A stretch of 64,000 bases of DNA from Candidatus Saccharimonadota bacterium. Lineage in GTDB: Bacteria > Patescibacteriota > Saccharimonadia > Saccharimonadales > Saccharimonadaceae. The first letter of the stretch is position 1; the number at the start of each line of letters is the position of its first letter. The stretch covers positions 186,001 through 250,000 of the forward strand of contig JAFRJX010000003.1 of assembly GCA_017432025.1 (NCBI GenBank), in the 5' to 3' direction. Positions 3,981-53,442 of this stretch are shown here, one piece after another. Both the position numbers and the translations under genes were made by a program. A model generated the notes under the pieces. That model did not search any database. It saw only the letters and a program-made list of their open reading frames with translations, and was not told the origin of the DNA.

Positions 3981-4962
3981 TCTCGGCCTCCGCGAGCAGT
4001 CCTGGGATGATGTTTACTAAATCAGCCAAAACTTCTTCGTAATTAGTATCATAGGTTCTAAATCCAGCCGCATATGGATGACCACCGCCACCAAAGTAGC
4101 CAGCGATTTTTTCAGCAATGCCACTACCTACACCACAGCGAATCTTGCCCGTGACCTTGCCGTCCGGATAGGTCTTAATCGCGACGGCGACCTTCACGCC
4201 TTCTACCAAACGGAGTTCTTCAAGAATCAGCACATTCGGGTTGTATTCGTCGGAATATTCGCGGATATCGTCCCATGGAATGTGAACGGTGGCTAGTTCC
4301 CCGTCGAGCGAGTAATCAATGCGCTTAATTAGATCGGCTTTATAATCAAGAATTCTTGGTGACTTCTTCATGAATTCACGGCGACGCTCTTCGAGGTCTG
4401 ACACCACCGCACCGAGTTTCGTGAGTTCAGATGCAATTTCAAAAGTCCTCGCCGTCACGGAAGTGCTGGTAAGCCCTAGAGTATCCGACAAAATCCCTTG
4501 GAAAATCGCTTCGGTGGCCTCAATCCCTAGTTCCATTTTCTGATCGACAGCAATCTCGTAAATGAGTTCCGCGCAAGCTGGGCGGACTTCAATGATGCTT
4601 TCGTGCGGGAAGTTTAAATCATCTTCCGTTTCATGATGATCAATCACAAGCACTGGCGCTGAATACAAACGATTTTTAATCGCCGAATCATCGAGCAGCT
4701 TCGAGAGTAAAACCTCGGCCGCTGTGTCAACAATGATATAACCATCGGCACGGTAATCAAATTCATTGGTCACTCTCGACCAATCCGCAAAATAGTGCAA
4801 ATACTTTGGAATATCCACCGGGCAGTACAGAGTCACCTCTTTGCCGGTCAGTAAATAATCGAGCGCAAAAGCCGAGCCGAGCGAGTCGCCATCCGGGTTT
4901 TCGGCTTGAATAATACAAATATGGTTTTTATCTTTAATAAAATCCGTAAATCTCTGATACAT
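3973..4962 (-). CDS. DHH/DHHA1 phosphoesterase (NrnA-like)
   Basis: A 329-aa protein of the NrnA/RecJ-like family, which hydrolyses short oligoribonucleotides, pAp or cyclic dinucleotides. The N-terminal DHH domain has NPDGDSLG (residues 23-30) and DHHETED near residue 107, both metal-binding motifs. The C-terminal DHHA1 domain has the nucleotide-binding GGGGHPYAAGF stretch near residue 290. It is the first gene of its operon; an extended -10 box lies 9 nt before the ATG, so the leader is only a few nucleotides. Which substrate it uses is not clear from sequence. Confidence 0.9.
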   Translation of the reverse strand: MYQRFTDFIKDKNHICIIQAENPDGDSLGSAFALDYLLTGKEVTLYCPVDIPKYLHYFADWSRVTNEFDYRADGYIIVDTAAEVLLSKLLDDSAIKNRLYSAPVLVIDHHETEDDLNFPHESIIEVRPACAELIYEIAVDQKMELGIEATEAIFQGILSDTLGLTSTSVTARTFEIASELTKLGAVVSDLEERRREFMKKSPRILDYKADLIKRIDYSLDGELATVHIPWDDIREYSDEYNPNVLILEELRLVEGVKVAVAIKTYPDGKVTGKIRCGVGSGIAEKIAGYFGGGGHPYAAGFRTYDTNYEEVLADLVNIIPGLLAEAENE

Positions 4963-4971
4963 ACAATATAT

Positions 4972-5002
4972 ATTATAACATATCGGTTTTTTGTGCTAAA
5001 AT
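4972..5002. promoter_or_regulatory. Divergent extended -10 promoters
   Basis: Two outward promoters fit in the 46-bp gap. On the minus strand TGT-TATAAT (4972-4977) ends 9 nt before the DHH gene. On the plus strand TGC-TAAAAT (4997-5002) ends 6 nt before the YqeG gene. Both predict leaderless or nearly leaderless mRNAs. Confidence 0.6.
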
Positions 5003-5008
5003 TATTGC

Positions 5009-5449
5009 ATGAACTCAATCAAAGCAGACAAAAAGTTTGAAAGATTCGAAGATGTCACGCCGGAAATCCTAAAAAGTGAAGGCGTTAAGCTTTTGCTCTG
5101 TGATCTTGATAATACCCTTAGGCTTCATTCCGAAAAAGAGCCGGCTGAAGAGCTCGTAAAATGGATTAGCGAGTGCCACAAAGCTGGTGTTAAAGTTGTA
5201 ATTATCTCGAATAATGGCCGCAAAAAGATGATGCAGAAATTCTGCGAGCCGATTAATGTTCCGTGTGTCTGGTGGGCACATAAACCATTTAGTACCAAGC
5301 TAACCGAAGCGATGGACGAATATCACTTTACTCCAGAAGAAACCGTCATGCTTGGCGATAAATATTCTACCGATGTACTCGCCGCTAGATTTGCCAAAAT
5401 CCGCGCCTGGAAAGTGAACCACAGAAGAGATCTTCCAGAAAATGAATAA
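5009..5449 (+). CDS. YqeG-family HAD phosphatase
   Basis: A 146-aa HAD phosphatase of the YqeG/Gep4 type. The catalytic DLDNT motif is at residues 32-36, motif II is IISNN, and the C-terminal acidic motif GDKYSTD is near residue 116. The yeast relative Gep4 removes the phosphate from phosphatidylglycerophosphate. The next gene, overlapping by 8 nt, is pgsA, which makes exactly that substrate, so the natural inference is that this enzyme performs the last step of phosphatidylglycerol synthesis. The start follows a -10 box by 6 nt (predicted leaderless). Confidence 0.9.
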   Translation: MNSIKADKKFERFEDVTPEILKSEGVKLLLCDLDNTLRLHSEKEPAEELVKWISECHKAGVKVVIISNNGRKKMMQKFCEPINVPCVWWAHKPFSTKLTEAMDEYHFTPEETVMLGDKYSTDVLAARFAKIRAWKVNHRRDLPENE

Positions 5450-5999
5450 AAAGAAGAATCATATCAATCTACCGACGATTTTAACTCTTATTCGAATCAT
5501 ATTCACTGTTCCGCTTTTCGTTTTGATATTCTTTGACAATCTGCCGGCCAAGATTTTGACGCTCTGTTTCTTTGTGGCGGCCTCCGTCACAGATTTCGTA
5601 GATGGCTACTTAGCAAGGAAGAATAAACAAGTCACAGACCTTGGTGCCTTTCTCGATCCCTTAGCCGACAAAATGCTAGTTAATCTCACTTTCCTTGCCC
5701 TCACCTATCAAAATCTCGTGCCAATTTGGCTCTTTGCGATTATTATCGTGCGCGATTTCATGGTGGACGGCGTTCGCATGATGGAAGCCAAAAAAGACAT
5801 TACCCTCGCTGCATCAAAAACCGGCAAAGCCAAAACCATGGTCCAAATGATTACGCTGTCACTCATTCTGCTAAACAAAATTATTGGCTCAGAAATATTT
5901 GCCAATATCAATTTCGCATTGCTAATTATCGTCCTGGTTCTTACGGTGATTTCCGGTTTGGAATATCTCGTTAAAGGATGGAAATCAATAATAAAATAG
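5442..5999 (+). CDS. pgsA: CDP-diacylglycerol-glycerol-3-phosphate phosphatidyltransferase
   Basis: PgsA condenses CDP-diacylglycerol with glycerol-3-phosphate. The complete CDP-alcohol phosphotransferase signature, D-x2-D-G-x2-A-R-x8-G-x3-D-x3-D, lies at residues 51-76. The protein is 185 aa with several hydrophobic helices, as expected for this integral membrane enzyme. The ATG overlaps the YqeG gene, and its 3' end overlaps the convergent cdsA gene by 29 nt. Confidence 0.95.
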   Translation: MNKKKNHINLPTILTLIRIIFTVPLFVLIFFDNLPAKILTLCFFVAASVTDFVDGYLARKNKQVTDLGAFLDPLADKMLVNLTFLALTYQNLVPIWLFAIIIVRDFMVDGVRMMEAKKDITLAASKTGKAKTMVQMITLSLILLNKIIGSEIFANINFALLIIVLVLTVISGLEYLVKGWKSIIK

Positions 6000-6654
6000 T
6001 CGTCGTAAATGCCGTTGAATCAATGCGGTCCAGATAGCCGCCGTGACCTTCTGTGCCACCAATCACCATTTCGATCTTTTCAAAGACTTTGTTCTTAATC
6101 AGGATCTCGTTTGAATCTTTAACCTTGAAGCGACGCTTTAAGAAGCTTTCGTAAAGATCGCCGACGAGTGCGAGCGGGCCACAAAGTAGATAAATCCAAT
6201 CAAGCTCAAAGGCGCCGCGAACCAGCATCATTGCAAGACACATGAGAAATGACATTAGGAGCCCAAGAAAAGTTCCCTCCCAGGTCTTGTTCTTCGAAAT
6301 GTGTGGGAACGGACGAGATTTCTTAAAAATCTTGCCACCAAAGGCTTTACCAAGTAGATAAGCGAAAATGTCGTAGCCACAAACGCCGAGAATAATATAC
6401 CAGAAATGATAACGATCGACTTTGGCGACCCAAATTGAAGAGCAAACTAAGAAAACAATTTCAATAATCGCGAGTAGCACGTGCCAGAAACTGATTTTGC
6501 GCCAGAAGAATGAAATCAATTCAATCGCCGAAATCAACGCGAATAAACCATAGATGATTTTAAATGGGATACTGTCAAAAGTATATAACGCTACGAGTGC
6601 AACAATGAACATCCCCAGCCCACAGATTACCCTCACCCTGAAATTCTTGTCCAT
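5971..6654 (-). CDS. cdsA: Phosphatidate cytidylyltransferase with a loop insertion
   Basis: CdsA makes CDP-diacylglycerol from phosphatidate and CTP. The 227-aa protein has about six membrane helices. The signature begins normally at residues 170-180 (SFLKRRFKVKD) and ends normally at 203-212 (GHGGYLDRID), but 22 residues separate them where Escherichia coli CdsA has 6. The catalytic residues are all present, so the enzyme is probably active. It converges on pgsA, the next enzyme of the pathway. A TATAAT box lies 8 nt before the ATG. Confidence 0.93.
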   Translation of the reverse strand: MDKNFRVRVICGLGMFIVALVALYTFDSIPFKIIYGLFALISAIELISFFWRKISFWHVLLAIIEIVFLVCSSIWVAKVDRYHFWYIILGVCGYDIFAYLLGKAFGGKIFKKSRPFPHISKNKTWEGTFLGLLMSFLMCLAMMLVRGAFELDWIYLLCGPLALVGDLYESFLKRRFKVKDSNEILIKNKVFEKIEMVIGGTEGHGGYLDRIDSTAFTTTILLLISIL

Positions 6655-6662
6655 ATATCCAC

Positions 6663-6697
6663 ATTATACACCAAATACCACTAAAAAATGGTAAAAT
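6663..6697. promoter_or_regulatory. Divergent -10 promoters of cdsA and the AMP ligase
   Basis: TATAAT on the minus strand (6663-6668) lies 8 nt before the cdsA ATG. TGG-TAAAAT on the plus strand (6692-6697) lies 7 nt before the AMP-ligase ATG. The gap between the two start codons is 50 bp and has no room for normal leaders. Confidence 0.55.
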
Positions 6698-6704
6698 ATA
6701 TATT

Positions 6705-8435
6705 ATGCTCGAATATGTCTATAGTAAGATAAAGCATGCTCTTCGCACCCTCGATATGAAGCTCGAACGTGCCAAGTATGGCTATATCGAAAAATTACCA
6801 AAAGATATTGAATATTTTGACGGCGGTATGTACGACGCGGTTTACGAGGCTTCTTGTAAATGGCCACACAATGTCGCACTCGATTATTTCGATATCAAAA
6901 TCACTTACAAAGAATTAATTAAAAAGATCAATAAAGTCGCCGCTGCTCTTAAGGAAGCCGGCGCTAAAAAAGGCGATCGCATTACCGTTTGTATGCCGAA
7001 TACCCCAGAAGCGGTTTATATGTTCTATGCGATTAATGAAATCGGTGCCGTCGCAAACATGGTACATCCGCTCTCTTCCGAAAAAGAAATCGAAGAATAT
7101 GTAAATGATGCTGATTCTAGAATCATGCTTTGCATCGACATTACTTATCCGAAAGTCGAAGCGATTATCAAGAACACCAATCTCGAACAAGTCGTCGTAG
7201 TTTCGGCCACCCGTTCAATGGACCTTGCTGTCCGCGTGATTTATAAACTCACAAAAGGCCGCAAAAACCATATTAAGACCGACCAGAAGATTATTACTTG
7301 GGACAAGTTCCTAAATCGTGCCGACAAATTTATCGGCAATCCACACGCTCGTGTGAATAGCAAAGACCCAGCCGTGATTCTCTACTCCGGCGGTTCTACT
7401 GGTAAACCAAAGGGCGCTATTCTTACAAACCTCAACTTCAACGCGCAGACGCTTGGCGCTAAATACTTAGTGCCAGAGTTACTAAAGGCCGAGAACGCTT
7501 ATCTATCTTTCCTGCCAAACTTCCACGCCTTTGGTCTTGGCTGTTGTCTTCACATGCCACTTTATTTCGGTTCCCGCGTCGTTTTGATTCCACAGTTCAA
7601 TGCCAAGAAGCTTAAAAAATACATCACAAAATATAAAATCAATATCTTAGTCGGCGTTCCAACCGTCTTTGAATATCTCACCAAGATTAAATTTAAGAAA
7701 AATGAATTAAAGAATGTCCGTTTTGTTGTGTCTGGTGGCGACATGATTAGTATGACGAGCAAGGAAAAGATTAATGATTTCTTGAAAGCTCACGGCTCCA
7801 AAGCTATTATTGAGAATGGCTATGGTCTTACCGAAGCTTCCGGCGGCTTCATCTTCTCACCAAGGAGTGTTGCGGAAGAACCAGACGTAATTGGTTATCC
7901 GTTGCCAGATAACGAAGTGGTTATTATGGATCTAAAAACCAAGAAAGAAGCCAAACTCGGGAACGACGGCGAAATCCTGGTTCGTGGCCTCGCTGTTATG
8001 AAGGAATACTTAAACAAGCCAAAAGAAACTGAGGAAGCCTTTATTATGGTTGGCGGCAAGAAATATCTCCGCACTGGCGATATTGGCTACGCCGACGAGC
8101 GTGGCGTGATTCACTTCCGTTCGCGCTTAAAGCGTATGATTATTTCAAACGGCTACAATATCTATCCGGCCAATATCGAAGATGTCACCTTGAAATGCAA
8201 TCTAGTTTCTGCCTGCGCTGTAGTTGGTCGTGAAGACAAACTTCGTGGCGAGAAAGTCGTCGTCTTTATCGTGGCAAAAGATAAAGCTTCCGAGCGCGCC
8301 ATCAAAAAAGATTTAGCCAACATCTACAAAAAGTATCTCGCTAAATACGAGATACCACGCGAGATTCGTTTCCTGCCAGAGTTGCCAAAGACCAAACTCG
8401 CCAAAGTTGATTTCAAGGCACTAGAAAAGTATTAA
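6705..8435 (+). CDS. AMP-dependent acyl-activating ligase (FadD-like)
   Basis: A 576-aa member of the adenylate-forming superfamily, which activates a carboxylic acid as acyl-AMP and usually passes it to CoA. Motifs in order: the phosphate loop YSGGSTGKPKG near residue 226, YGLTEASG near 372, RTGDIGY near 455, and a C-terminal domain with a lysine in the TKLAKVDF stretch as expected for the adenylation lysine. Similarity is highest to long-chain fatty acid ligases, but the acyl group cannot be read from sequence. Its place next to cdsA, pgsA and the YqeG phosphatase suggests activation of scavenged fatty acids for phospholipids. Confidence 0.88.
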   Translation: MLEYVYSKIKHALRTLDMKLERAKYGYIEKLPKDIEYFDGGMYDAVYEASCKWPHNVALDYFDIKITYKELIKKINKVAAALKEAGAKKGDRITVCMPNTPEAVYMFYAINEIGAVANMVHPLSSEKEIEEYVNDADSRIMLCIDITYPKVEAIIKNTNLEQVVVVSATRSMDLAVRVIYKLTKGRKNHIKTDQKIITWDKFLNRADKFIGNPHARVNSKDPAVILYSGGSTGKPKGAILTNLNFNAQTLGAKYLVPELLKAENAYLSFLPNFHAFGLGCCLHMPLYFGSRVVLIPQFNAKKLKKYITKYKINILVGVPTVFEYLTKIKFKKNELKNVRFVVSGGDMISMTSKEKINDFLKAHGSKAIIENGYGLTEASGGFIFSPRSVAEEPDVIGYPLPDNEVVIMDLKTKKEAKLGNDGEILVRGLAVMKEYLNKPKETEEAFIMVGGKKYLRTGDIGYADERGVIHFRSRLKRMIISNGYNIYPANIEDVTLKCNLVSACAVVGREDKLRGEKVVVFIVAKDKASERAIKKDLANIYKKYLAKYEIPREIRFLPELPKTKLAKVDFKALEKY

Positions 8436-26699: not shown

Positions 26700-29303
26700 A
26701 TGTTAATTCAAAAATTAGCAAATTTTTGGCATTCGAGAAATGCAAGTTTTTCGAAGAAAATAATCTGGTTCTCACCGGTGGTTTTTGCTCTCTGCGCTAC
26801 AATTCTTAATCCGATCAAGGTGTTTGCAGAAGACTCGCTATCGATATCAATCTCCTCGGGAGGCAGTCTCGCTTTCAGTGTCGACCAAGGAATGACGAAC
26901 TCAGTAACAGAAACAATCACAGCCTCCACCACAAATCTTACAGGATACAATATATCAATCAAAACTACAGGCAGCACTAGCCTTAGCTATGTTGGTAATA
27001 ATAATGCCACCATCCCGACCGTAACGCTCCCGAGCGGCAATACTACTGGTATTCCATTAGCCAACTTTGGCTCAACGGCCTACGGCTATAGCCTAAACGG
27101 CACTAATTACCTGCCGATTTCCGACAGCGCCTTAACTTCTGGCGGGCAAGCACTCATTCAAACCTTGACTGCTGGCAGTAATACTTATTCCCTTTCATTT
27201 GGTGCTTATGTCGATATTGATGTGCCATACGGCGATTATGCCAGGACCTACGAGCTAGCCATCACCGCCAACCCGGTCGGATACGCAATTTATTATGAAA
27301 GCAATACGGAAGATGCCGTTTCGAATATGCCAACTTCACCAGTAACTGAGGATCTTTCGGCTACTGACACTACTATTGCTAGTGAAACACCGACCAGGAC
27401 CGGCTATGTCTTCCTCGGCTGGAGCAAGAACCAGAATGCTTCGGTTGCTACCTATCAACCTGGCGACACGATGCTACTAGATATAAATGATGGAACGACA
27501 GTGAACTTATATGCGATTTGGACACCAATTACTTATCAAATTGCCTTTAATAGCAACGCTCCACAAGGTATGACTGTTACAGGCTCGATGAGCAATCAAA
27601 ACTTCACCTATGGCACAGCACAAACCATCACTGCTAACGCTTACAGAATTGCCGATCATCAATTCTTGGGCTGGAACACTAGTGCTGATGGTACTGGTAC
27701 AGCGTATGAAGATGCTGAACAGGTCAATAACCTTACAACCACAAATAATGCCACAATTACACTCTATGCCCAGTGGCTCCATGGTTTCAAATTTGATGGT
27801 TCCTGTGCCTTTGACGGTCAAGGCAATGTGACTGGTGATTGTGCGAAATATGCAACTGGCGGCGTCATTAATACTGGTGTTGCGCTGCTTAATCAGACTA
27901 ACGCTACTAAAGACTTTACAGTCGAATTTACCATTAACTCGTTTGGTACGCATCAAACCACTCAGGCAACCTTATTCTCAAATAAAGATGAGAATGGCAC
28001 CTCACCATGGCCAGGCTTCCATCTAAGAGCCAGTAATGCAACTACTCTCCAGATTCGTACTGCATATACCGGATCAACCATCGCCAAGACCGTTCCTACT
28101 ACTGCCGGCACTAGAATTGTTGTCAGGAAAAAAGATGGAATTCTTTCCTACAGTACGAACGGCGGTACTTCATTTACGACATTGATAGATCTTTCTGGTT
28201 TCAACAGGTATTTCAGCTATACTGCGACTATTGGTGGCATTATCGATAGCAGTGGGAATCCGGCTCGGTTTATTGAAGCAACTATTTCTGACTTTAAACT
28301 TGAGATTTACGATGCAACCACTTATCTCGTTCAATATGATACACAAGGCGGCAGTACGCCACCGGCCAGCCATATCATGGAAGTTGAAGGCGGTGAACTA
28401 TCGATTATTGTTCCTACCAAAGCCAACAACATGTTTGAATGTTGGAATACCATGCCGGATGGCACTGGCACCTGTTATAATCCTGGAGAAACTGTTGATC
28501 ATATTGGTACTCCAGGTAGTGTGGTTATACTCTACGCTATTTGGGTCCCTCCAGTTAGCTACACTGTAGTCTTCCACGACAACACAGTTGCCGACAACAC
28601 GGTAGAACAAGAATTAGTCTATGGCGACGGTCAAACCCTAGACGCCAACACGTTCACGAACGGCACGAAGCAGTTTGTAAAGTGGAGTACTACCGCGGAT
28701 GGCACTGGCAAAGATTACTTCGACGAAGAACAAATACTAACCGGCCTTACCGAAACCGCCAATGATACAGTTGATCTTTACGCTATCTGGGCCGACAGCG
28801 TCTATGTGCCAAATCAAACCGTTCTGTCATTTGATGGTACGAATTATCTAAATACTGGAGTACGTCTATTCGATAGTACTAACTTCGGAAAAGACTTTGA
28901 AATCATTTTCAACATCGACAGTATGGGTACTAATGCCGTCCAGAATACAGTCGTCTCATCAATGGACGAAACTGGTCAACCATGGCCGGGCTTCTGCTTC
29001 AGGCTTGGTGAGACTGGCCAATACGAATTTGCAGCCAATGCCTCATCGGCTAGCAGCGACCGCGTCAGGAAGTACTTTACTGGCGAATCAAACAAAGTCT
29101 CAATCAAGAGGGTAAATAATATTCTCTACGGAAAGCTAAATAATGGTACTGAACAAATGATTATAAATTACGCCAATCTCGCCGGTCCATTTAATACTGA
29201 AGTCTGGGTTGGTGCCGGCCCTAAAGAAAATGGCACGCCACGTCGGTTCTTCGTTGGCCAAATCAGCAACTTCAAGATTGCCATTAGTGATCCACAAATC
29301 TAG
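26700..29303 (+). CDS. Exported surface protein with InlB-type and LamG-like repeats
   Basis: An 867-aa exported protein. A signal or anchor helix lies at about residues 21-43 with a possible cleavage site after VFA. Residues 44-190 form an N-terminal domain that resembles the one in the giant protein at 45862. Then a module occurs twice: two InlB/Listeria-Bacteroides-type beta repeats (195-358, and 542-698), each ending near LYAIW or LYAQW, followed by a LamG-like jelly-roll domain (about 359-540, and 705-867). Such parts bind sugars or proteins on other cells. There is no C-terminal sorting signal. AAAAGGA precedes the ATG. Confidence 0.85.
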   Translation: MLIQKLANFWHSRNASFSKKIIWFSPVVFALCATILNPIKVFAEDSLSISISSGGSLAFSVDQGMTNSVTETITASTTNLTGYNISIKTTGSTSLSYVGNNNATIPTVTLPSGNTTGIPLANFGSTAYGYSLNGTNYLPISDSALTSGGQALIQTLTAGSNTYSLSFGAYVDIDVPYGDYARTYELAITANPVGYAIYYESNTEDAVSNMPTSPVTEDLSATDTTIASETPTRTGYVFLGWSKNQNASVATYQPGDTMLLDINDGTTVNLYAIWTPITYQIAFNSNAPQGMTVTGSMSNQNFTYGTAQTITANAYRIADHQFLGWNTSADGTGTAYEDAEQVNNLTTTNNATITLYAQWLHGFKFDGSCAFDGQGNVTGDCAKYATGGVINTGVALLNQTNATKDFTVEFTINSFGTHQTTQATLFSNKDENGTSPWPGFHLRASNATTLQIRTAYTGSTIAKTVPTTAGTRIVVRKKDGILSYSTNGGTSFTTLIDLSGFNRYFSYTATIGGIIDSSGNPARFIEATISDFKLEIYDATTYLVQYDTQGGSTPPASHIMEVEGGELSIIVPTKANNMFECWNTMPDGTGTCYNPGETVDHIGTPGSVVILYAIWVPPVSYTVVFHDNTVADNTVEQELVYGDGQTLDANTFTNGTKQFVKWSTTADGTGKDYFDEEQILTGLTETANDTVDLYAIWADSVYVPNQTVLSFDGTNYLNTGVRLFDSTNFGKDFEIIFNIDSMGTNAVQNTVVSSMDETGQPWPGFCFRLGETGQYEFAANASSASSDRVRKYFTGESNKVSIKRVNNILYGKLNNGTEQMIINYANLAGPFNTEVWVGAGPKENGTPRRFFVGQISNFKIAISDPQI

Positions 29304-43775: not shown

Positions 43776-44684
43776 TTAATTGGTAAAGAGTTTTTTGTCG
43801 AGACTGAGTAGGTCTACGAAGTCCGTAATTATGCGAATTTCTTTCGAAACTTTCTCGACCTCCGCCTTCTCGTCAATCGGCTTAGATGACTTCGGCGGCT
43901 CGAATGAATCCTTACCGTCGTTTAGACCAATTAGGAGCGTATTATTTAGAAAGCCAAACAGTACTCGACCATTATGCGATTCGTTAATCGCTTGAATCTT
44001 TTCCATAATTGCCGGATCAAGAATATAGAAAGCCTCAAATCCGTCTTGCGCATAGATCTTAAAGGCTTTATTAAAATCGGTTGATTCGGTTTGGAGTTTA
44101 TTCATTTTGCGACCGGTCTGCTTGCTCTTGCCCGGGATTCTCGCTGCGCGACCAAATTTCTTGCCGATAAGCTCTAGTTTGAAACTAAACTTCTTCGGGA
44201 ATTCAAACACCATGAATCGACCACGGAAAATCGTAACTTCCTGGCGATTGCCATCCGAATCATAGTATTCTTCTTCAATATGAACATCGGCTTGGACAAA
44301 ATTGACGCCTTTATAAGTTCCCTGCGCTAAATCATTTGAATGATAGATGTCGCCGGTATTCACCATCTCACTCGAACGTAGTAGACCGCTATTTAGTCCA
44401 ACATTCTGATGATATTGCAGGTTGGTAAAAACGCTAGCTAAGTTTCTTTTAATGAAATACTCCTTATATGCATCACGATAAGCTGTGGCTTCTTTACTCG
44501 TAGCAAAGGCCAAGATAATCGCGCCTATACAGAGCACAAATAATGCAATGAAAATTGCTATAAATGACGCAAACGGAAAAGTGATTCCGCCCATCACTAA
44601 ACTTACTACTAATGCGATAGTCCACGCACGCACGAGCTTATCATGATAAACCTGACGTGCTTTTTCAACATCCTTAAATTCCAT
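43776..44684 (-). CDS. DUF3137 membrane protein
   Basis: A 302-aa protein of the DUF3137 family: a short N-terminus, two close membrane helices (about 21-62) and a soluble domain with the family features (FRGRFMVFEFPKKF, LDPAIMEKIQ, VLFGFLNNTLLIGL). Function unknown; homologues often sit next to lemA, which is absent here. A TATAAT box ends 6 nt before the ATG, so it is predicted leaderless and monocistronic. Confidence 0.8.
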   Translation of the reverse strand: MEFKDVEKARQVYHDKLVRAWTIALVVSLVMGGITFPFASFIAIFIALFVLCIGAIILAFATSKEATAYRDAYKEYFIKRNLASVFTNLQYHQNVGLNSGLLRSSEMVNTGDIYHSNDLAQGTYKGVNFVQADVHIEEEYYDSDGNRQEVTIFRGRFMVFEFPKKFSFKLELIGKKFGRAARIPGKSKQTGRKMNKLQTESTDFNKAFKIYAQDGFEAFYILDPAIMEKIQAINESHNGRVLFGFLNNTLLIGLNDGKDSFEPPKSSKPIDEKAEVEKVSKEIRIITDFVDLLSLDKKLFTN

Positions 44685-44705: not shown

Positions 44706-45749
44706 TTAATTATTGACGCGATGATGCATAGTCGGCGAAGTAGCCGTCAAGCGCTCGAATTTAAAACCGTTCTTTAGGCCGAACTGAATGATGCTCTCGA
44801 CTGCACTAATCGAATAGTTTTTTGAATCATGCTGGAGCACGATATACTCGCCACCCGGCTGCAAATTATCTATCACATTCGTATAAACAACATATGGATC
44901 GGTAGTCGAGCCGGCATCACCGGACGAAATATTCCAGTCAAAATAAGTGTAACCACGGTTTGTAACCTCCTGCACTAACCTAGTCATGATTCTGGTGCCA
45001 CCATCATATCTCCGGCTGACAGTATTGGAGCTTCCGCCCGGAAAACGGATGAGTGTAGCTGTATAGCCAGTAATCCTTTTAACGCGTTCCTGAATACGAG
45101 CTAGATCAGCAAAATAATTTTCGATACTAGCATAGACATAGGAATAATCATGCGACCAGGTGTGCAGTGCTACCGTGTGTCCTTCGTCATATTCGCGTTT
45201 AATAATTGAATCATCGCCATTTCCAGTCACAAAGAAGGTTACTTTCACATCGTATTTTTTCAACATGTCGAGCAAAGCACCTGTATTAGTCCACGGTCCA
45301 TCATCAAATGTCAGATAAATTGTGCCAGAATATTTTGGAACGACCGTGACGACGCGCTCCTTTTTACTCGCATTTTGCAAGCTATCCATTGACGAATATG
45401 TGAGTTTATAAGTGCCTTCCTTTTCGATATCAACCGTGCCAGAAATCACTACTTCCACTTCCTCGCAACTATCGATTGCTGTAGCGCCAAGTTCTTCATA
45501 TTCTTCACCAACTTTCAGAGTAATTGCGCCATTTCCGTTTAAAGTAATTTCTGGCGCTTCCTTGTCGTCGGTCTCACAAAAACTCTCTGCCGTTCCCTCG
45601 GCTTTTTCTTTTACATGTTTATCAAACTCGGTCCTGGCCGCAAAACAGCCGATCGTTGCAAGAGATGTCACTATTAGCAAAGTGATAAGAATGATCCTAA
45701 ACCAATGATGCCTAGGTTTTGGTTGTACTATTTGTGGTTGTTCTTCCAT
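44706..45749 (-). CDS. Polysaccharide deacetylase with Ig-like domain
   Basis: A 347-aa exported protein: an N-terminal membrane anchor (about 13-36), an Ig-like DUF5011 domain (about 60-135, with GEEYEELGATAIDSC), and a NodB deacetylase domain. The metal site shows TFDDGP near 147 and HTWSHD near 193, and RFPGGSSN and the late QHDS are also typical. It probably removes acetyl groups from peptidoglycan or a surface polysaccharide, a common way to resist lysozyme. AAAAGG precedes the ATG. Confidence 0.9.
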   Translation of the reverse strand: MEEQPQIVQPKPRHHWFRIILITLLIVTSLATIGCFAARTEFDKHVKEKAEGTAESFCETDDKEAPEITLNGNGAITLKVGEEYEELGATAIDSCEEVEVVISGTVDIEKEGTYKLTYSSMDSLQNASKKERVVTVVPKYSGTIYLTFDDGPWTNTGALLDMLKKYDVKVTFFVTGNGDDSIIKREYDEGHTVALHTWSHDYSYVYASIENYFADLARIQERVKRITGYTATLIRFPGGSSNTVSRRYDGGTRIMTRLVQEVTNRGYTYFDWNISSGDAGSTTDPYVVYTNVIDNLQPGGEYIVLQHDSKNYSISAVESIIQFGLKNGFKFERLTATSPTMHHRVNN

Positions 45750-45861: not shown

Positions 45862-48800
45862 ATGTTATTGGGCAAAAGAAAAAGGGGTCTAAAACTTTCT
45901 GAATTCGGTATAATCCGAAGAGTTTTTGTGCGCGTGGTATATTCCCTTTTAATTATTACCGTAATTGGAGTATTCTTGCCATTTGCAAGAACTCAGAGTG
46001 AAGCGGAGGCGATAGTTGATCTTACTGGTGAGCCAACAATCACGATGACATCAATTAAGAGCAGTGCCTCAGTTACCATTGACCCGACCACTACCGGCGT
46101 CTTTGCATCTACTTCGGGAAATGATGACATTGCTTTTTCTGTAGCCACCACAAATTATACAGGCTACACACTGTCGTCTAGAAGCACAAAGACGACCCTC
46201 GATAAAGGAACCAATTCATTTAATTCCCTTACATCGTCTGTAACCGCCGAACAGTTTTCAAACAGTGGGAATACAACTTTAAACAACCGATGGGGGTATA
46301 AACCTAGTTTTTATAATTCAGAATCGAACAATAAATACTTTGGCATTAGCACATCGGCAGTTACGCTCGACCATACATTAGCCGCAAATAGCATTGCAAA
46401 ACAATACTCCATATCATTAGGAGCAAGAGCTGATACCTCTTTACCATATGGTTCCTATATTAATGCGAATTTCATCCTGGAAGCCATTGCAAACGTTGTG
46501 CCAACCTCAAATATTGTCATCGAATATGATCCGGGCGTGTCAGAAATAAGAATTGCTGGTCAAACGATAGCCGATGGAGACACGGTTAAGTTAATCACTG
46601 GCGTGCCATATGTAATTGAAGCAGATATCTATCCAGAGTTCGAATTTTACGATTGGGATATTAGTGGAGGGCAAATTGAGCAAGAGGGTCAAGTATACAA
46701 GATAACAGCGAGTGCAAATAGCGGAAGCACGCTAATACAAACTACTTTCATCGGAAGCAACATCCAGAATTTAGACAAAACTCTATGCACAACTACACCA
46801 ATGAGAGTAAAGGACTCCCGTGATGGTCAGATTTATGTTATCCAAAAACTCGCCGACGACAATTGTTGGATGATGGATAATCTAAATATTGGCGCAGTTA
46901 CATTGTCGACAGATTTAACATCGGAAAATACTAATGTCACCAACACAATAGAGGCGTCAACTTTCAATAGTTGGAAAAAGACGTCCGGAACTGGAACGCG
47001 AACGTCTGCTGAATTCATCACTATTGAAGGAAAAGACAGTACTACGAAGTCGAAATATGGCACATTATACAATTATTGTGCCACATCCGGCGGAACCATC
47101 TGCTCGACTAGTACCTATGGCACGGCAACCGCCGACTTATGTCCAGCCGGTTGGAGGCTCCCAACGGGAGGGGCGAATGGCGAATTCCAAAACCTCTATA
47201 CTAATGGATATGATACCTTGGCTGAAATGCGCGCACCGGCGAACCAAAATGGCCTAGCTATTACTTATTCAGGATACTTTAATGACTCCACTCCTCTATT
47301 AAAAGACACTGAAGGCTTTATTTGGGCTATTAACCCATATAACTATAACGAAATGAATAGCGCCCACGTAAGCGCATCAGAGCAAAATCTTGCGCACCAC
47401 TATTATCGTCAATATGGCGCATCAATCCGATGTATCATGAAAAAACAAATATCAGATCTAGATTATCTTCAGGATTTTTCAAGAATCACCGATTCAGATT
47501 ATAAAGAATTGCTTCAGACCATGCCAGAAGGCGCACAATATCAACTAGAAGATGAGCGTGAACAAGGTAAAAAATACTGGATCTCTAGATTAAAAGATGG
47601 GCAAATCTGGATGACGCAAAACCTAGATTTAAATATTAGTAGCGCAATCACATATACCCATGCGAGCACAGACATTAAATGGGGTGGCGATCTTAGAACG
47701 TCCAGCTGGCAACCAGACAATAGCACAATTGATGCTACTGCAAATACTAGCGCCACTATTTCTGGATGGACTCAAAGTAATCTTTACCCAAATTCTGTAG
47801 ACGTCGGGAACTATTATTGGAATGGTTTGTATTACACTTCAGTTGAAAACCTTTATTTGGCGGGTGATATGGGTAGTGAGCCAATAAAATGGCAAAAGAA
47901 TACGCCATTCAACATCAACAAGGAGCACGGTCACGTTGGCAATTATTATAACTTTACGGCAGCAATAGCTCAAAACGATAGTAGTGAATATAATTACAGC
48001 ACGTATGAAAACTTAAATGCTGCACCGCAAAACTCTATCTGTCCTGCCGGATGGAGACTCCCAACGATGGTTAAGAATAATTCAACTAAAAGCGAATATA
48101 AAAGGCTTTATACATTATATGGAGGTTCAAGCGGGCAACTAGATGCAGGGCTTGTTTCTAGCCCATTCTATATGTCAAGAGTTGGTTATATTAATACTTC
48201 ATCGGCGCTTGCTCAAAGTGGTAAAGTCGCTGAATTCGCTACAAGTGCAGCAATAAGCAATTCCATTAATGGCGTCGCGCAATTCAGCTCAACATCGGCA
48301 AACGTAGAATATACTGTTGTCTCTAACGGAAGAAGTTACGGAACGACCATCAGATGCGTTGCAAGAAGCACCCACGACACGAGCAATGTCACTATTCAAT
48401 ACGGCGAAGGTGTAGCGGCGGTAATGTTTGGCGGTGTAGAGTATCATAATGGAGATGTGGTTCCCGCTATTAAAGGCGTGCAATACGATGTAAGTGCTGT
48501 GATGAACGATGGCTATTCATTTGTTAGCTGGTCATACACTTCTGGGCAAATCGGCAAATACAATAGCCAAGTCACAACGTATACGCCGTTTAGTATCTCA
48601 GGCTCAATAACGGTAAATTCAGAGGCTACCAAATCGGCCGGGGTGATGCAAAACCTTTCAAGTTCTAGCTGTACCGAAACGGTTAAACTAGCCACAGACA
48701 ATAGGGATAATAGGGCATATAAGATTCAACGCCTTGCGGACGGAAATTGCTGGATGATAGAAAACCTTGACCTTGGGAATACGAGCTTGTCTGTACAACT

Positions 48801-51774
48801 TGATAGTACCAATACAAACATTGAACATACTGTTTCTGCAACAACCTTCAATGGATGGAAGAAAACATCAGGGTCATCATCCTATACTACGGGCGTATAT
48901 GTTCAAAATAACTCCACCGACCCAGTTGCAGGAAGTAAGTATGGAATGTATTACAATTATTATGCGGCAACTGCTGGTTATATATATGGATCTTCAAACG
49001 CCGAAGCCTCTCGATATGATATCTGTCCAGCCGGTTGGAGGCTGCCAACAACTGGTTCATCAAAAGAGTTTTATAACCTATACTTTAACAATTATAAAAA
49101 CGTTAATAAAATGAGGGCTCCAATTAATGAGGGTGGCCTAGGAATCCCATTTGCTGGACAAATTAGAACATCATCAACACCTACAAACCAAGATACTGAA
49201 GCATGGTTCTGGGCCAGAGCGACTACTGATACTATGAATTCGAATCTGTCTTACGGCCCAAATTTCAGGTTTAACGCAAACAACACTAGCTATAATACTG
49301 CGGTGTATAGATATTATAGTATTTCAATAAGATGTGTTTTGAAAAAACAACATCAACTGACAATTAAATACGGTACAGGTGTATCGAGCGTGACGGTTAA
49401 CGGAACAACAGTCGCAGATAATGGCGTAGTGACTGTGAATGAGGGGGATATGGTGCAAATAAGAATGACTCCAGAAGTTGGAAGAGAATTTAGCTCATGG
49501 ACGAAAACATCAGGAACACTTGGGTCATCAACACAAATTGAAACAACATATACCGTCTCAACGGCAAATGCGACATTAACCGCAAACACGACTGCATTCT
49601 CTGGCCCTGTAATTCAAAACTATTCAGCTAATGACTGTAGTGCTACTGCGACAGAGGCGCAGGACAATCGCGATGGAACGATATATAAGGTAATGGAGCT
49701 AAACGATGGCAACTGTTGGATAATGGAGAGCCTTGACCTCGGTGCGATGGATCTTAAAACGAATTTGAACAGCACTAACACGAATATAAATTCCACAATC
49801 ACTGCGGCAGCATTTAATAGTTGGAGAAGGAGATACTCGAGCTCGAATTACACATCCGGAGAGTTTATTAGTAGATATGGAACTGATAGTTATGCGTCAG
49901 AAAGATTCGGCACACTATACAACTATTATGCGGCGACTGGCGGAACAGTTTCTGGTACGGGGGTTAAGCCGGATGCAGAATATGATATCTGCCCAGCGGG
50001 ATGGAGAATGCCAACATATACCGAATTATCAGATTTGTATTCGTATTATAATACAACGACGCTTCTTCGTTCGCCAATCGCAAGTGGCGGTGCAGCCTTT
50101 ACTACGGGTTCACGTTTTGCTAGCGATTCTGGAGCCGGCACCGGAAAAACAGGCTATTATTGGACTTCGACTGCAACAACGACAACGAATGTTGTGTATA
50201 GTATGACTCTTTCATCGTCATCTGTTTCGATTGGAGAAACCGGATATAGATATTATGGTCAATCAATAAGATGCATTCTAAAAAAACCAAAAACTATTTC
50301 CGATTTAACATATCTACAAGATTTCAATAACCTTTCTGACGAGGACGCTACTTCGGTATTGTCATCAATGTCATACAATACAACCTACGAACTGACCGAT
50401 AGTCGTGACAGCAGGACTTATACTATCGCAAAAATGAAAGACGGTAATATCTGGATGGCGGAAAATCTCGATCTCGGTCACACCAGCTTGTCGGCGGCAC
50501 TCACAAGTGCAAATACAAATATTAGTACATCAATCCCTGCCGCCACCTTTAATGGATGGATTACCACGTCTGCAGTTGGCACCAATGATGCTGGCGAAGT
50601 AATGGCTGTTTCAGGCACTGACGCGACATCCGGCACGGCCTATGGCACTTTATATAATTATTATGCCGCCTCAGCCGGTGAAGTTAACGGCAATTCGTAT
50701 TCGGCAAACGCAAACCACGATATTTGCCCAGCCGGATGGAGGCTCCCGACCGGTAGTATATACGGCGAGGTTTATAATCTTTATAGTATCTCTGACTATA
50801 ATTCCCCAACACTATTTAGAACGCCAATTACAAGTGGTGGCGCCGGCTTCTCGCTCGCCGGTGTCGCTTGGAGTGGTGCACCAGAATACACATCATATTA
50901 TGCTAGCTACTGGACATCTTCAATGGCAAGTGATACCCTCGCCTTTAGGGCAAGCATGAACCAATCAAGTGTCGGCGCGGATGGTAGCGATAATAGGTCT
51001 CCGCTCGGTTCAGTTCGCTGTATTGCTAAACTATCTGGCAAAGGCATCACTGACTATACGCGCCTACAAGAGCTCCGCACGCTTAACAATGAATCCAAAA
51101 CAAAGTTGCTTAGCTCGATGACCGAAAATACGAACTATACTCTAACTGATGCTCGTGACGGCGCCTCCTATACTGTTGCAAAATTAAAAGACGGCAATAT
51201 CTGGATGACAAAGAATCTAGATCTTGGCCGCACGACTCTCTCGGAAAACTTGAATAGTGTCAATACAAACATGTCCAATCCAAACGTTCCTTACGCTACA
51301 TTCAATGGTTGGAAGAAAACATCTGCAACCGGAACGTATGATGCTGGTGAATTTATTAATATATCCGGCACAGATTCAACCGCCGGTGCGGCTTATGGTA
51401 CGTTATATAATTATTATGCCGCCTCTGCCGGCACTATCTCTGGTAGTAGTAATCTAAATAATGCAACATACGATATTTGCCCAGCTGGCTGGAGATTGCC
51501 AACTGGTGGTACAAGCGGAGAATTTGTTACGCTAAGCGGTTATTATACTACCGCAACAATGCACGCTTCGATTGCGAATGGTGGCGCCGCCTTCTCGTTC
51601 CCTGGCTATTTTGATACAGGTACACCAACTGGTACGACCGATGGTGGATATTGGACGTCGTCTGCTAACGGAACAAATAGTACATTTATTATGTATATTT
51701 CATCATCGCTTCTCCAGACATCCACCGCAGACGGACGTAACCACGGAAATGCAATTCGTTGTGTTCTAAAATAA
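45862..51774 (+). CDS. Giant surface protein with six FISUMP domains
   Basis: A 1970-aa exported protein. A membrane helix lies at about residues 20-45. Residues 50-215 form an N-terminal domain related to that of the protein at 26700. Then come six FISUMP (TIGR02145) domains, each with DGxxYxIxxLxDGNxWM, YGTLYNYYAA, a CPAGWRLP (CPAGWRMP in the fourth) and an ending SIRCxxK: about 305-525, 563-830, 937-1160, 1257-1473, 1485-1723, 1735-1970. Domains 1, 3 and 4 are preceded by a beta domain (GxxxxxxxGxxxxxGD type); 2, 5 and 6 by a LQ-rich helical linker. The last domain ends at the stop codon, with no anchor. Likely a cell-cell adhesin. Confidence 0.9.
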   Translation: MLLGKRKRGLKLSEFGIIRRVFVRVVYSLLIITVIGVFLPFARTQSEAEAIVDLTGEPTITMTSIKSSASVTIDPTTTGVFASTSGNDDIAFSVATTNYTGYTLSSRSTKTTLDKGTNSFNSLTSSVTAEQFSNSGNTTLNNRWGYKPSFYNSESNNKYFGISTSAVTLDHTLAANSIAKQYSISLGARADTSLPYGSYINANFILEAIANVVPTSNIVIEYDPGVSEIRIAGQTIADGDTVKLITGVPYVIEADIYPEFEFYDWDISGGQIEQEGQVYKITASANSGSTLIQTTFIGSNIQNLDKTLCTTTPMRVKDSRDGQIYVIQKLADDNCWMMDNLNIGAVTLSTDLTSENTNVTNTIEASTFNSWKKTSGTGTRTSAEFITIEGKDSTTKSKYGTLYNYCATSGGTICSTSTYGTATADLCPAGWRLPTGGANGEFQNLYTNGYDTLAEMRAPANQNGLAITYSGYFNDSTPLLKDTEGFIWAINPYNYNEMNSAHVSASEQNLAHHYYRQYGASIRCIMKKQISDLDYLQDFSRITDSDYKELLQTMPEGAQYQLEDEREQGKKYWISRLKDGQIWMTQNLDLNISSAITYTHASTDIKWGGDLRTSSWQPDNSTIDATANTSATISGWTQSNLYPNSVDVGNYYWNGLYYTSVENLYLAGDMGSEPIKWQKNTPFNINKEHGHVGNYYNFTAAIAQNDSSEYNYSTYENLNAAPQNSICPAGWRLPTMVKNNSTKSEYKRLYTLYGGSSGQLDAGLVSSPFYMSRVGYINTSSALAQSGKVAEFATSAAISNSINGVAQFSSTSANVEYTVVSNGRSYGTTIRCVARSTHDTSNVTIQYGEGVAAVMFGGVEYHNGDVVPAIKGVQYDVSAVMNDGYSFVSWSYTSGQIGKYNSQVTTYTPFSISGSITVNSEATKSAGVMQNLSSSSCTETVKLATDNRDNRAYKIQRLADGNCWMIENLDLGNTSLSVQLDSTNTNIEHTVSATTFNGWKKTSGSSSYTTGVYVQNNSTDPVAGSKYGMYYNYYAATAGYIYGSSNAEASRYDICPAGWRLPTTGSSKEFYNLYFNNYKNVNKMRAPINEGGLGIPFAGQIRTSSTPTNQDTEAWFWARATTDTMNSNLSYGPNFRFNANNTSYNTAVYRYYSISIRCVLKKQHQLTIKYGTGVSSVTVNGTTVADNGVVTVNEGDMVQIRMTPEVGREFSSWTKTSGTLGSSTQIETTYTVSTANATLTANTTAFSGPVIQNYSANDCSATATEAQDNRDGTIYKVMELNDGNCWIMESLDLGAMDLKTNLNSTNTNINSTITAAAFNSWRRRYSSSNYTSGEFISRYGTDSYASERFGTLYNYYAATGGTVSGTGVKPDAEYDICPAGWRMPTYTELSDLYSYYNTTTLLRSPIASGGAAFTTGSRFASDSGAGTGKTGYYWTSTATTTTNVVYSMTLSSSSVSIGETGYRYYGQSIRCILKKPKTISDLTYLQDFNNLSDEDATSVLSSMSYNTTYELTDSRDSRTYTIAKMKDGNIWMAENLDLGHTSLSAALTSANTNISTSIPAATFNGWITTSAVGTNDAGEVMAVSGTDATSGTAYGTLYNYYAASAGEVNGNSYSANANHDICPAGWRLPTGSIYGEVYNLYSISDYNSPTLFRTPITSGGAGFSLAGVAWSGAPEYTSYYASYWTSSMASDTLAFRASMNQSSVGADGSDNRSPLGSVRCIAKLSGKGITDYTRLQELRTLNNESKTKLLSSMTENTNYTLTDARDGASYTVAKLKDGNIWMTKNLDLGRTTLSENLNSVNTNMSNPNVPYATFNGWKKTSATGTYDAGEFINISGTDSTAGAAYGTLYNYYAASAGTISGSSNLNNATYDICPAGWRLPTGGTSGEFVTLSGYYTTATMHASIANGGAAFSFPGYFDTGTPTGTTDGGYWTSSANGTNSTFIMYISSSLLQTSTADGRNHGNAIRCVLK

Positions 51775-51828: not shown

Positions 51829-53442
<1,614 letters not shown>

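Follow-up and report, generated by a model that had tools for sequence, protein, structure and literature searches.

The forward-strand gene described here probably encodes a secreted, multivalent surface adhesin made of retired modules of diversity-generating retroelements (DGRs), which would recognise and hold partner cells in the ruminant gut. It lies in the window, by which we mean the whole 64,000-nucleotide stretch of DNA analysed. The main point lies beyond the window: in this genus the FISUMP domains, strung together in arrays, appear to be binding modules diversified by DGRs. A so far uncharacterised domain, common in some gut bacteria, thereby gains a variable-binding role that can be put to the test. 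More tentatively, we propose a cellular recognition repertoire in the small genome of a host-dependent lineage: DGRs rewrite binding faces inside tandem arrays as well as at protein tips, recombination stores, multiplies and swaps the modules between loci and strains, and the window protein is a stored library whose writer has been lost.

The gene is a single ATG-to-stop frame encoding 1970 residues. Six stretches of the product were matched by the TIGR02145 'FISUMP' profile (202 bits against a cut-off of 41.65), and Pfam reported Fib_succ_major (152 bits, five stretches), Lcl_C (39.5 bits) and Flg_new_2 (24.4 bits). The original prediction of a 1970-residue protein with six FISUMP domains was thus confirmed, as were its details: CPAGWRLP or CPAGWRMP and a final RC were present in all six domains, and the linkers followed the order beta, helix, beta, beta, helix, helix, the first beta being the end of the N-terminal region. 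Domain 2 was the outlier, with 272 residues and 26-31% identity to the other five, which were 38-52% identical to one another. The features of the locus are as follows (window coordinates, strand, residues as aa):

43776-44684 (-): DUF3137 protein, neighbour (Pfam)
44706-45749 (-): polysaccharide deacetylase with an Ig-like domain, divergent neighbour (Pfam)
45862-51774 (+): gene of the six-FISUMP protein (reading frame, TIGR02145)
45862-46011 (+): signal peptide, aa 1-50 (sequence read by eye, x-A site conserved)
46012-46500 (+): N-terminal beta-sandwich domain, aa 51-213 (conserved in the giants of the genus; model)
46501-46812 (+): first beta linker, aa 214-317, with a Cys (QNLDKTLC) ahead of domain 1
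46813-47442 (+): FISUMP domain 1, aa 318-527 (TIGR02145)
47443-47550 (+): helix linker, aa 528-563, without Cys
47551-48366 (+): FISUMP domain 2, aa 564-835, divergent, with long insertions
48367-48696 (+): beta linker, aa 836-945, with a Cys ahead of the domain
48697-49344 (+): FISUMP domain 3, aa 946-1161
49345-49662 (+): beta linker, aa 1162-1267, InlB B-repeat/CnaB-like beta fold (model)
49663-50283 (+): FISUMP domain 4, aa 1268-1474, C-type-lectin-like (model)
50284-50397 (+): helix linker, aa 1475-1512
50398-51030 (+): FISUMP domain 5, aa 1513-1723
50836-51030 (+): stretch of domain 5 in gap-free alignment with the 65-codon L040 template repeat (sister species)
51031-51147 (+): helix linker, aa 1724-1762
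51148-51771 (+): FISUMP domain 6, aa 1763-1970, terminal
51832-53442 (+): CTP synthase, downstream neighbour, starting 58 bases past the FISUMP stop

Export of the protein, also foreseen in the original prediction, is supported by its leader, which combines a charged n-region with a hydrophobic stretch, ends in SEAEA and is followed by IVDLTG, the conserved start of the mature protein. Paralogues and alleles share the x-A cleavage site ahead of the mature domain, and the signal peptide was called by eye from the sequence together with this conservation of the cleavage region. At the other end the chain finishes with domain 6 itself; no C-terminal anchor was recognisable in the sequence, so the protein could be shed.

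FISUMP domains were abundant well beyond this gene. The source genome (858,689 bases, assembly 97% complete) encodes 13 FISUMP proteins with about 60 domains and 24,568 residues, amounting to 8.6% of the genome, and the longest arrays in these 859 kb reach 10 domains per protein. The argument that the gene must be important as it fills almost a tenth of the window is weak for one gene, although the family does occupy the share of the genome just given. In a sample of the order, FISUMP was found in 41 of the 43 genomes of this genus, the two members without a match being G016 and G178, versus 13 of 252 elsewhere, and a sample of the phylum gave 16 of 381 genomes at E<=1e-6, indicating that the expansion belongs to one genus. 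The closest named loci came from Candidatus Saccharibacteria genomes, mostly of ruminant gut (roe deer, goat, sheep, yak, buffalo). Carriage of the domain by phages was rejected, as tblastn gave no match in 50,697 phage records. The nearest parallel is Fibrobacter, where the same family (TIGR02145/PF09603) underwent a large paralogous expansion in gut bacteria and is inferred to be extracytoplasmic; most of the Fibrobacteres genomes listed carry 17-119 copies, named among putative cellulose-binding proteins (PMC4704652). The Saccharibacteria genus differs in its arrays of up to 10 domains and in the link to DGRs in sister species.

Two further proteins were noted in the source genome. A pseudopilin with a C-terminal FISUMP domain (L011, 3331-4779, -, genome contig C3) adjoins a prepilin peptidase. 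The pseudopilin occurs genus-wide. Near-full-length matches that include the FISUMP part were limited to four genomes, the tip being confined to a few close relatives, and its frame extends beyond the pilin part in several more; given the few genomes with the FISUMP part and the longer frames elsewhere, the FISUMP tip may be exchangeable. In the window itself, 26700-29303 (+) encodes an 867-residue protein with Listeria-Bacteroides repeats (Flg_new), a possible surface protein.

No solved structure of FISUMP was found by sequence search. Structure prediction of a repeat, as the original prediction had proposed, was carried out with AlphaFold2 on residues 1162-1723, with an input alignment of 53 segments, drawn from the window and from named relatives, and the resulting model (pLDDT 94.6) gave a C-type-lectin-like fold. 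Foldseek alone returned no significant or only poor matches to the models. With VIA-align, the model of domain 4 was matched to InvE (Z 8.6), the C-terminal domain of Legionella Lcl (7.5), Bdellovibrio Bd2740 (7.0), Mtd (6.3), and snake-venom lectins and LOX-1 (5-6). These Z-scores are middling, yet all alignment rows over domain 4 were C-type-lectin-like domains, and the model of the beta linker resembled bacterial adhesin spacers, the InlB B-repeat among them. We predict from this model that FISUMP has a C-type-lectin-like fold. The layout is comparable to that of intimin and invasin, in which Ig-like spacers precede a C-type-lectin-like domain; those proteins are anchored in the outer membrane and bear one terminal lectin-like domain. 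The likeness to the C-terminal domain of Lcl (8q4e) is accompanied by the Lcl_C match reported above, but Lcl is a trimer with a collagen stalk and a single such domain, unlike the window protein with its six domains in one chain; Lcl binds glycosaminoglycans, i.e. sulphated glycans (PMC11162425). The mosaic adhesive trimer fibres of Bdellovibrio (Bd2740 tip, 8oks) resemble the FISUMP proteins in having a C-type-lectin-like tip on a surface protein and a large redundant repertoire, and their bearer attacks bacteria, Bd2740 being a fibre tip on this predator (PMC10769870). They differ in being trimers with a varied single tip, with no DGR described, and a sequence match to FISUMP was not seen. 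Both Lcl (PMC11162425) and Bd2740 (PMC10769870) lack the calcium-binding/sugar motif of true C-type lectins.

The two kinds of linker differed in their cysteines. Among 245 domains, a Cys in the linker and a Cys before the conserved Trp of the domain occurred together in 135 cases and were both missing in 91; 19 cases had the linker Cys only, most of them with two Cys in the linker, and none the domain Cys only. Because the domain Cys was never seen without a Cys in the preceding linker, the beta linkers are probably stapled by a disulfide to the next FISUMP domain, and this covariation suggests that the helical joints are mostly without such a staple. The N-terminal region (model of residues 40-330, pLDDT 82) showed a weak likeness to pilin subunits and TasA (Z 5-6.7), and its beta-sandwich is possibly an anchor or polymerisation domain. 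Its assignment as WxL was rejected for lack of support, and so was a relationship with small secreted proteins beside two of the giants. The latter, secreted-looking and of no known family, are encoded at L009 2112-2645 (-) and L012 17645-18169 (+), and their sequence ends are alike (YTGTATYTLTQK). A sortase beside one giant, a first guess from its sequence, was dropped, as no family match was obtained.

Comparison of 242 domains revealed that the part after CPAGWRLP varies far more than the part before it. The first half was at least 75% identical in 260 pairs, in 35 of which the second half was at most 45% identical; conversely, none of the 37 pairs with a second half at least 75% identical had a first half below 60%. 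In many pairs of low dS the dN/dS of the second half exceeded 1, with values of at most 0.46 for the first half. In the window gene, the second half of domain 6 was the fastest-changing stretch relative to the L028 allele (43% amino acid identity, versus 85% for the first half). Gene-wide positive selection acting through point mutations was rejected, with dN/dS of about 0.08 against the same allele and saturated dS. The second half of the module carries the likely binding face. This distribution of variability bears on the suggestion, made in the literature for Fibrobacter (PMC4704652), that FISUMP acts as a cohesin analogue in a scaffold docking secreted enzymes, which we consider very improbable here: no docking module that could serve as its partner is known, and a docking surface would be expected to stay constant, whereas variability here peaks at the likely contact face.

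In the tandem array at L019 the variable codons were mostly NNC, a form which pointed to DGRs. Short FISUMP-like repeats rich in Asn codons were indeed found beside RT genes in sister species (L038, L040, L074 and L098), in each case downstream of the RT and inverted relative to it, an arrangement unlike that of the prophage DGR of the source genome. Mismatches between template and variable repeat fell at template A in 26/26 (L040), 30/30 (L038), 21/21 (L074) and 15/15 (L098) cases. The L040 template also explained a second gene on another contig of the same genome (L029, 23/24 at A) and, again in that genome, a domain in the interior of a protein with four of them (L032, residues 700-762 of 1331, 23/26). 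An interior domain of another relative, L036, fitted the same template (30/31 mismatches at A); no L040-type RT was found in G301, apparently the same genome as that of L036. RT genes were present in 40 of 60 genomes of the genus. A FISUMP-like stretch adjoined the RT in 14 of the 24 RT loci fetched, and 10 of those 14 had a TR/VR pair with at least 84%, and mostly at least 90%, of the mismatches at template A. The interior modules may have been mutated in place or may have arrived by recombination: between L032 and L031 the stretches before the domain and after its variable part were nearly identical, the first half of the domain had been exchanged, and the variable part showed a dS of 0.19 and a dN of 0.36. 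Judged by these mismatch patterns, the C-terminal half of FISUMP is the variable region of DGRs in sister species, and some of the targets are interior. FISUMP was already known as an uncommon DGR target (9 proteins), and DUF1566 and Fib_succ_major targets occur in human microbiomes (PMC4159848). Like other DGR targets such as Mtd of a Bordetella phage, it combines a C-type-lectin-like fold with a variable C-terminal half and variation at template Asn codons. Variable regions have been described at the protein C-terminus, with cis elements behind the gene (PMC8144416), unlike those that sit here in interior domains of arrays, and several of them within one target gene have been reported (PMC6642488). 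FISUMP arrays offer natural test cases for DGR action at interior positions, which is hard to accommodate under the usual view (PMC8144416). Two minor observations concern these loci. A 321-residue ORF of no known Pfam family lies between target and RT in L040, and a record titled Clostridia bacterium (L087) carries a FISUMP gene and an RT of the Saccharibacteria kind, perhaps through a binning error.

The window protein itself, unlike such targets, has no cognate template in its genome. None of its six domains matched the sister-species templates at the DNA level (E<=1e-4), the four places matched by the L040 template in the source genome all lie within FISUMP genes, and the only RT found in that genome was the one of the prophage DGR. 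The template of this element matches only its own phage-type target, and it was rejected as the diversifier of the FISUMP giants. The prophage DGR (L027, genome C6:78000-93000) occupies 4357-7853, with integrase, terminase and portal genes close by, and comprises a VR at 5845-5955, a TR at 6543-6653 and an RT at 6834-7853; 11 of 13 mismatches fall at template A, and the target is a Big_2/DUF6273 protein. Traces of past diversification were nevertheless apparent in the window modules. Domain 5 aligned to the 65-codon L040 template peptide without gaps, and variable columns coincided with the template's 21 AAY codons in the six window domains (p=1.8e-4), in the source genome (p=5.9e-8) and among all domains (p=2.6e-8). 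At template-like positions NNY codons made up 100% in fresh targets; in the window gene they made up 68%, versus 58% elsewhere (p=0.07), and K, E, Q, M and W occur at these positions. With neither a matching template nor a cognate RT in the genome, and with its codon signature weakened, the window gene is not a current DGR target. The simplest reading is that its modules would descend from DGR-varied modules whose writer is now absent, although variation at template Asn codons could also reflect ordinary selection on an exposed face.

Present diversity was assessed by comparing alleles. Four relatives encode a FISUMP protein at the same locus, of 1605, 1607, 1972 and 2255 residues with 5, 5, 6 and 7 domains, respectively; absence of the protein from close relatives had been put forward as grounds for refuting a role in host recognition. 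These alleles were 43-80% identical, versus 94-99% for the genes beside them. Relative to L047, the FISUMP protein was 43% identical and the downstream genes 98-99% (dS 0.18-0.33; CTP synthase 98.5%); the deacetylase (dS 1.8) and the DUF3137 gene (dS 1.6) shared the high divergence of the FISUMP gene. Relative to L028, from whose locus the CTP synthase is absent, the FISUMP gene was 80% identical with a dS of about 1.7 over nearly the whole length, and the next genes had a dS of 0.25-0.36. L044 and L047 were alike up to about codon 900 (dS 0.1-0.55) and saturated from the start of domain 3. Window domain 5 was 86% identical to domain 6 of L030, with neighbouring domains below 55%. By these identities and dS values, the diversity of the window gene demonstrably comes from allele exchange at the locus. 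Background dS between the source and L047 genomes ranged from 0.18 to saturated, with medians of 0.7-1.2 by distance class, and this unevenness indicates that exchange is common genome-wide and that FISUMP genes of high dS are not always a case of special exchange. Old alleles exchanged at a single locus and diversified exposed positions would equally fit a variable coat, whose arrays change so as to evade phages, grazing by protozoa or the antibodies of a host and in which binding plays a secondary part, and the source genome does have a prophage with a DGR-varied protein of its own. We nonetheless find this account improbable, in view of the constant C-type-lectin frame, of purifying selection outside the template-like positions, and of the fact that phages and adhesins bind their receptors with the same fold.

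We favour the adhesin reading, which would work as follows. The conserved N-terminal beta domain would hold the protein at the cell surface or let it polymerise, and behind it would be strung six C-type-lectin-like modules, separated by stapled beta spacers and short helical joints without a staple. Each module would have a constant first half and a varying second half bearing the likely binding face. In sister species the RT would make a copy of the adenine-rich template that contains errors at A, and this copy would take the place of a module's end, apparently in interior modules of arrays too. In the source genome, where no such template or RT was found, the six modules would be retired DGR products, kept by purifying selection and reshuffled by the recombination between alleles and paralogues seen above. 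Their most likely role would be to recognise and hold partner cells in the ruminant gut. A host bacterium is a plausible ligand and the favoured one, because cultivated Patescibacteria are obligate episymbionts (PMC12206443) and because fixed polymers need no changing binding face. The same molecule might instead bind plant fibre, mucin or other gut particles and so keep the cell in the ruminant gut, as the ruminant origin of the relatives, the proposal of FISUMP as a putative cellulose binder with many copies in Fibrobacteres (PMC4704652) and the binding of sulphated glycans by Lcl, a fold relative (PMC11162425), would suggest; we think this unlikely, since fixed polymers leave the hypervariable faces, the DGR targeting and the allele exchange unexplained. 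Type IV pili contribute to host binding (PMC12206443), but host finding and host choice in Saccharibacteria and other Patescibacteria are poorly understood, and the FISUMP family, with its variable faces mapped, supplies concrete candidates.

Finally, the gene neighbourhood had been taken to act on cell-wall sugars. This argument is weak: the deacetylase and the DUF3137 gene flank the FISUMP gene divergently, yet downstream lie CTP synthase, a glycosyltransferase and a GH57 enzyme, and in one relative the CTP synthase is missing there. The CTP synthase (51832-53442) was about 45% identical to that of most members of the genus and 94-98.5% identical to that of a few close relatives; from these identities and its absence from the L028 locus, the gene may have arrived together with the FISUMP locus or next to it.
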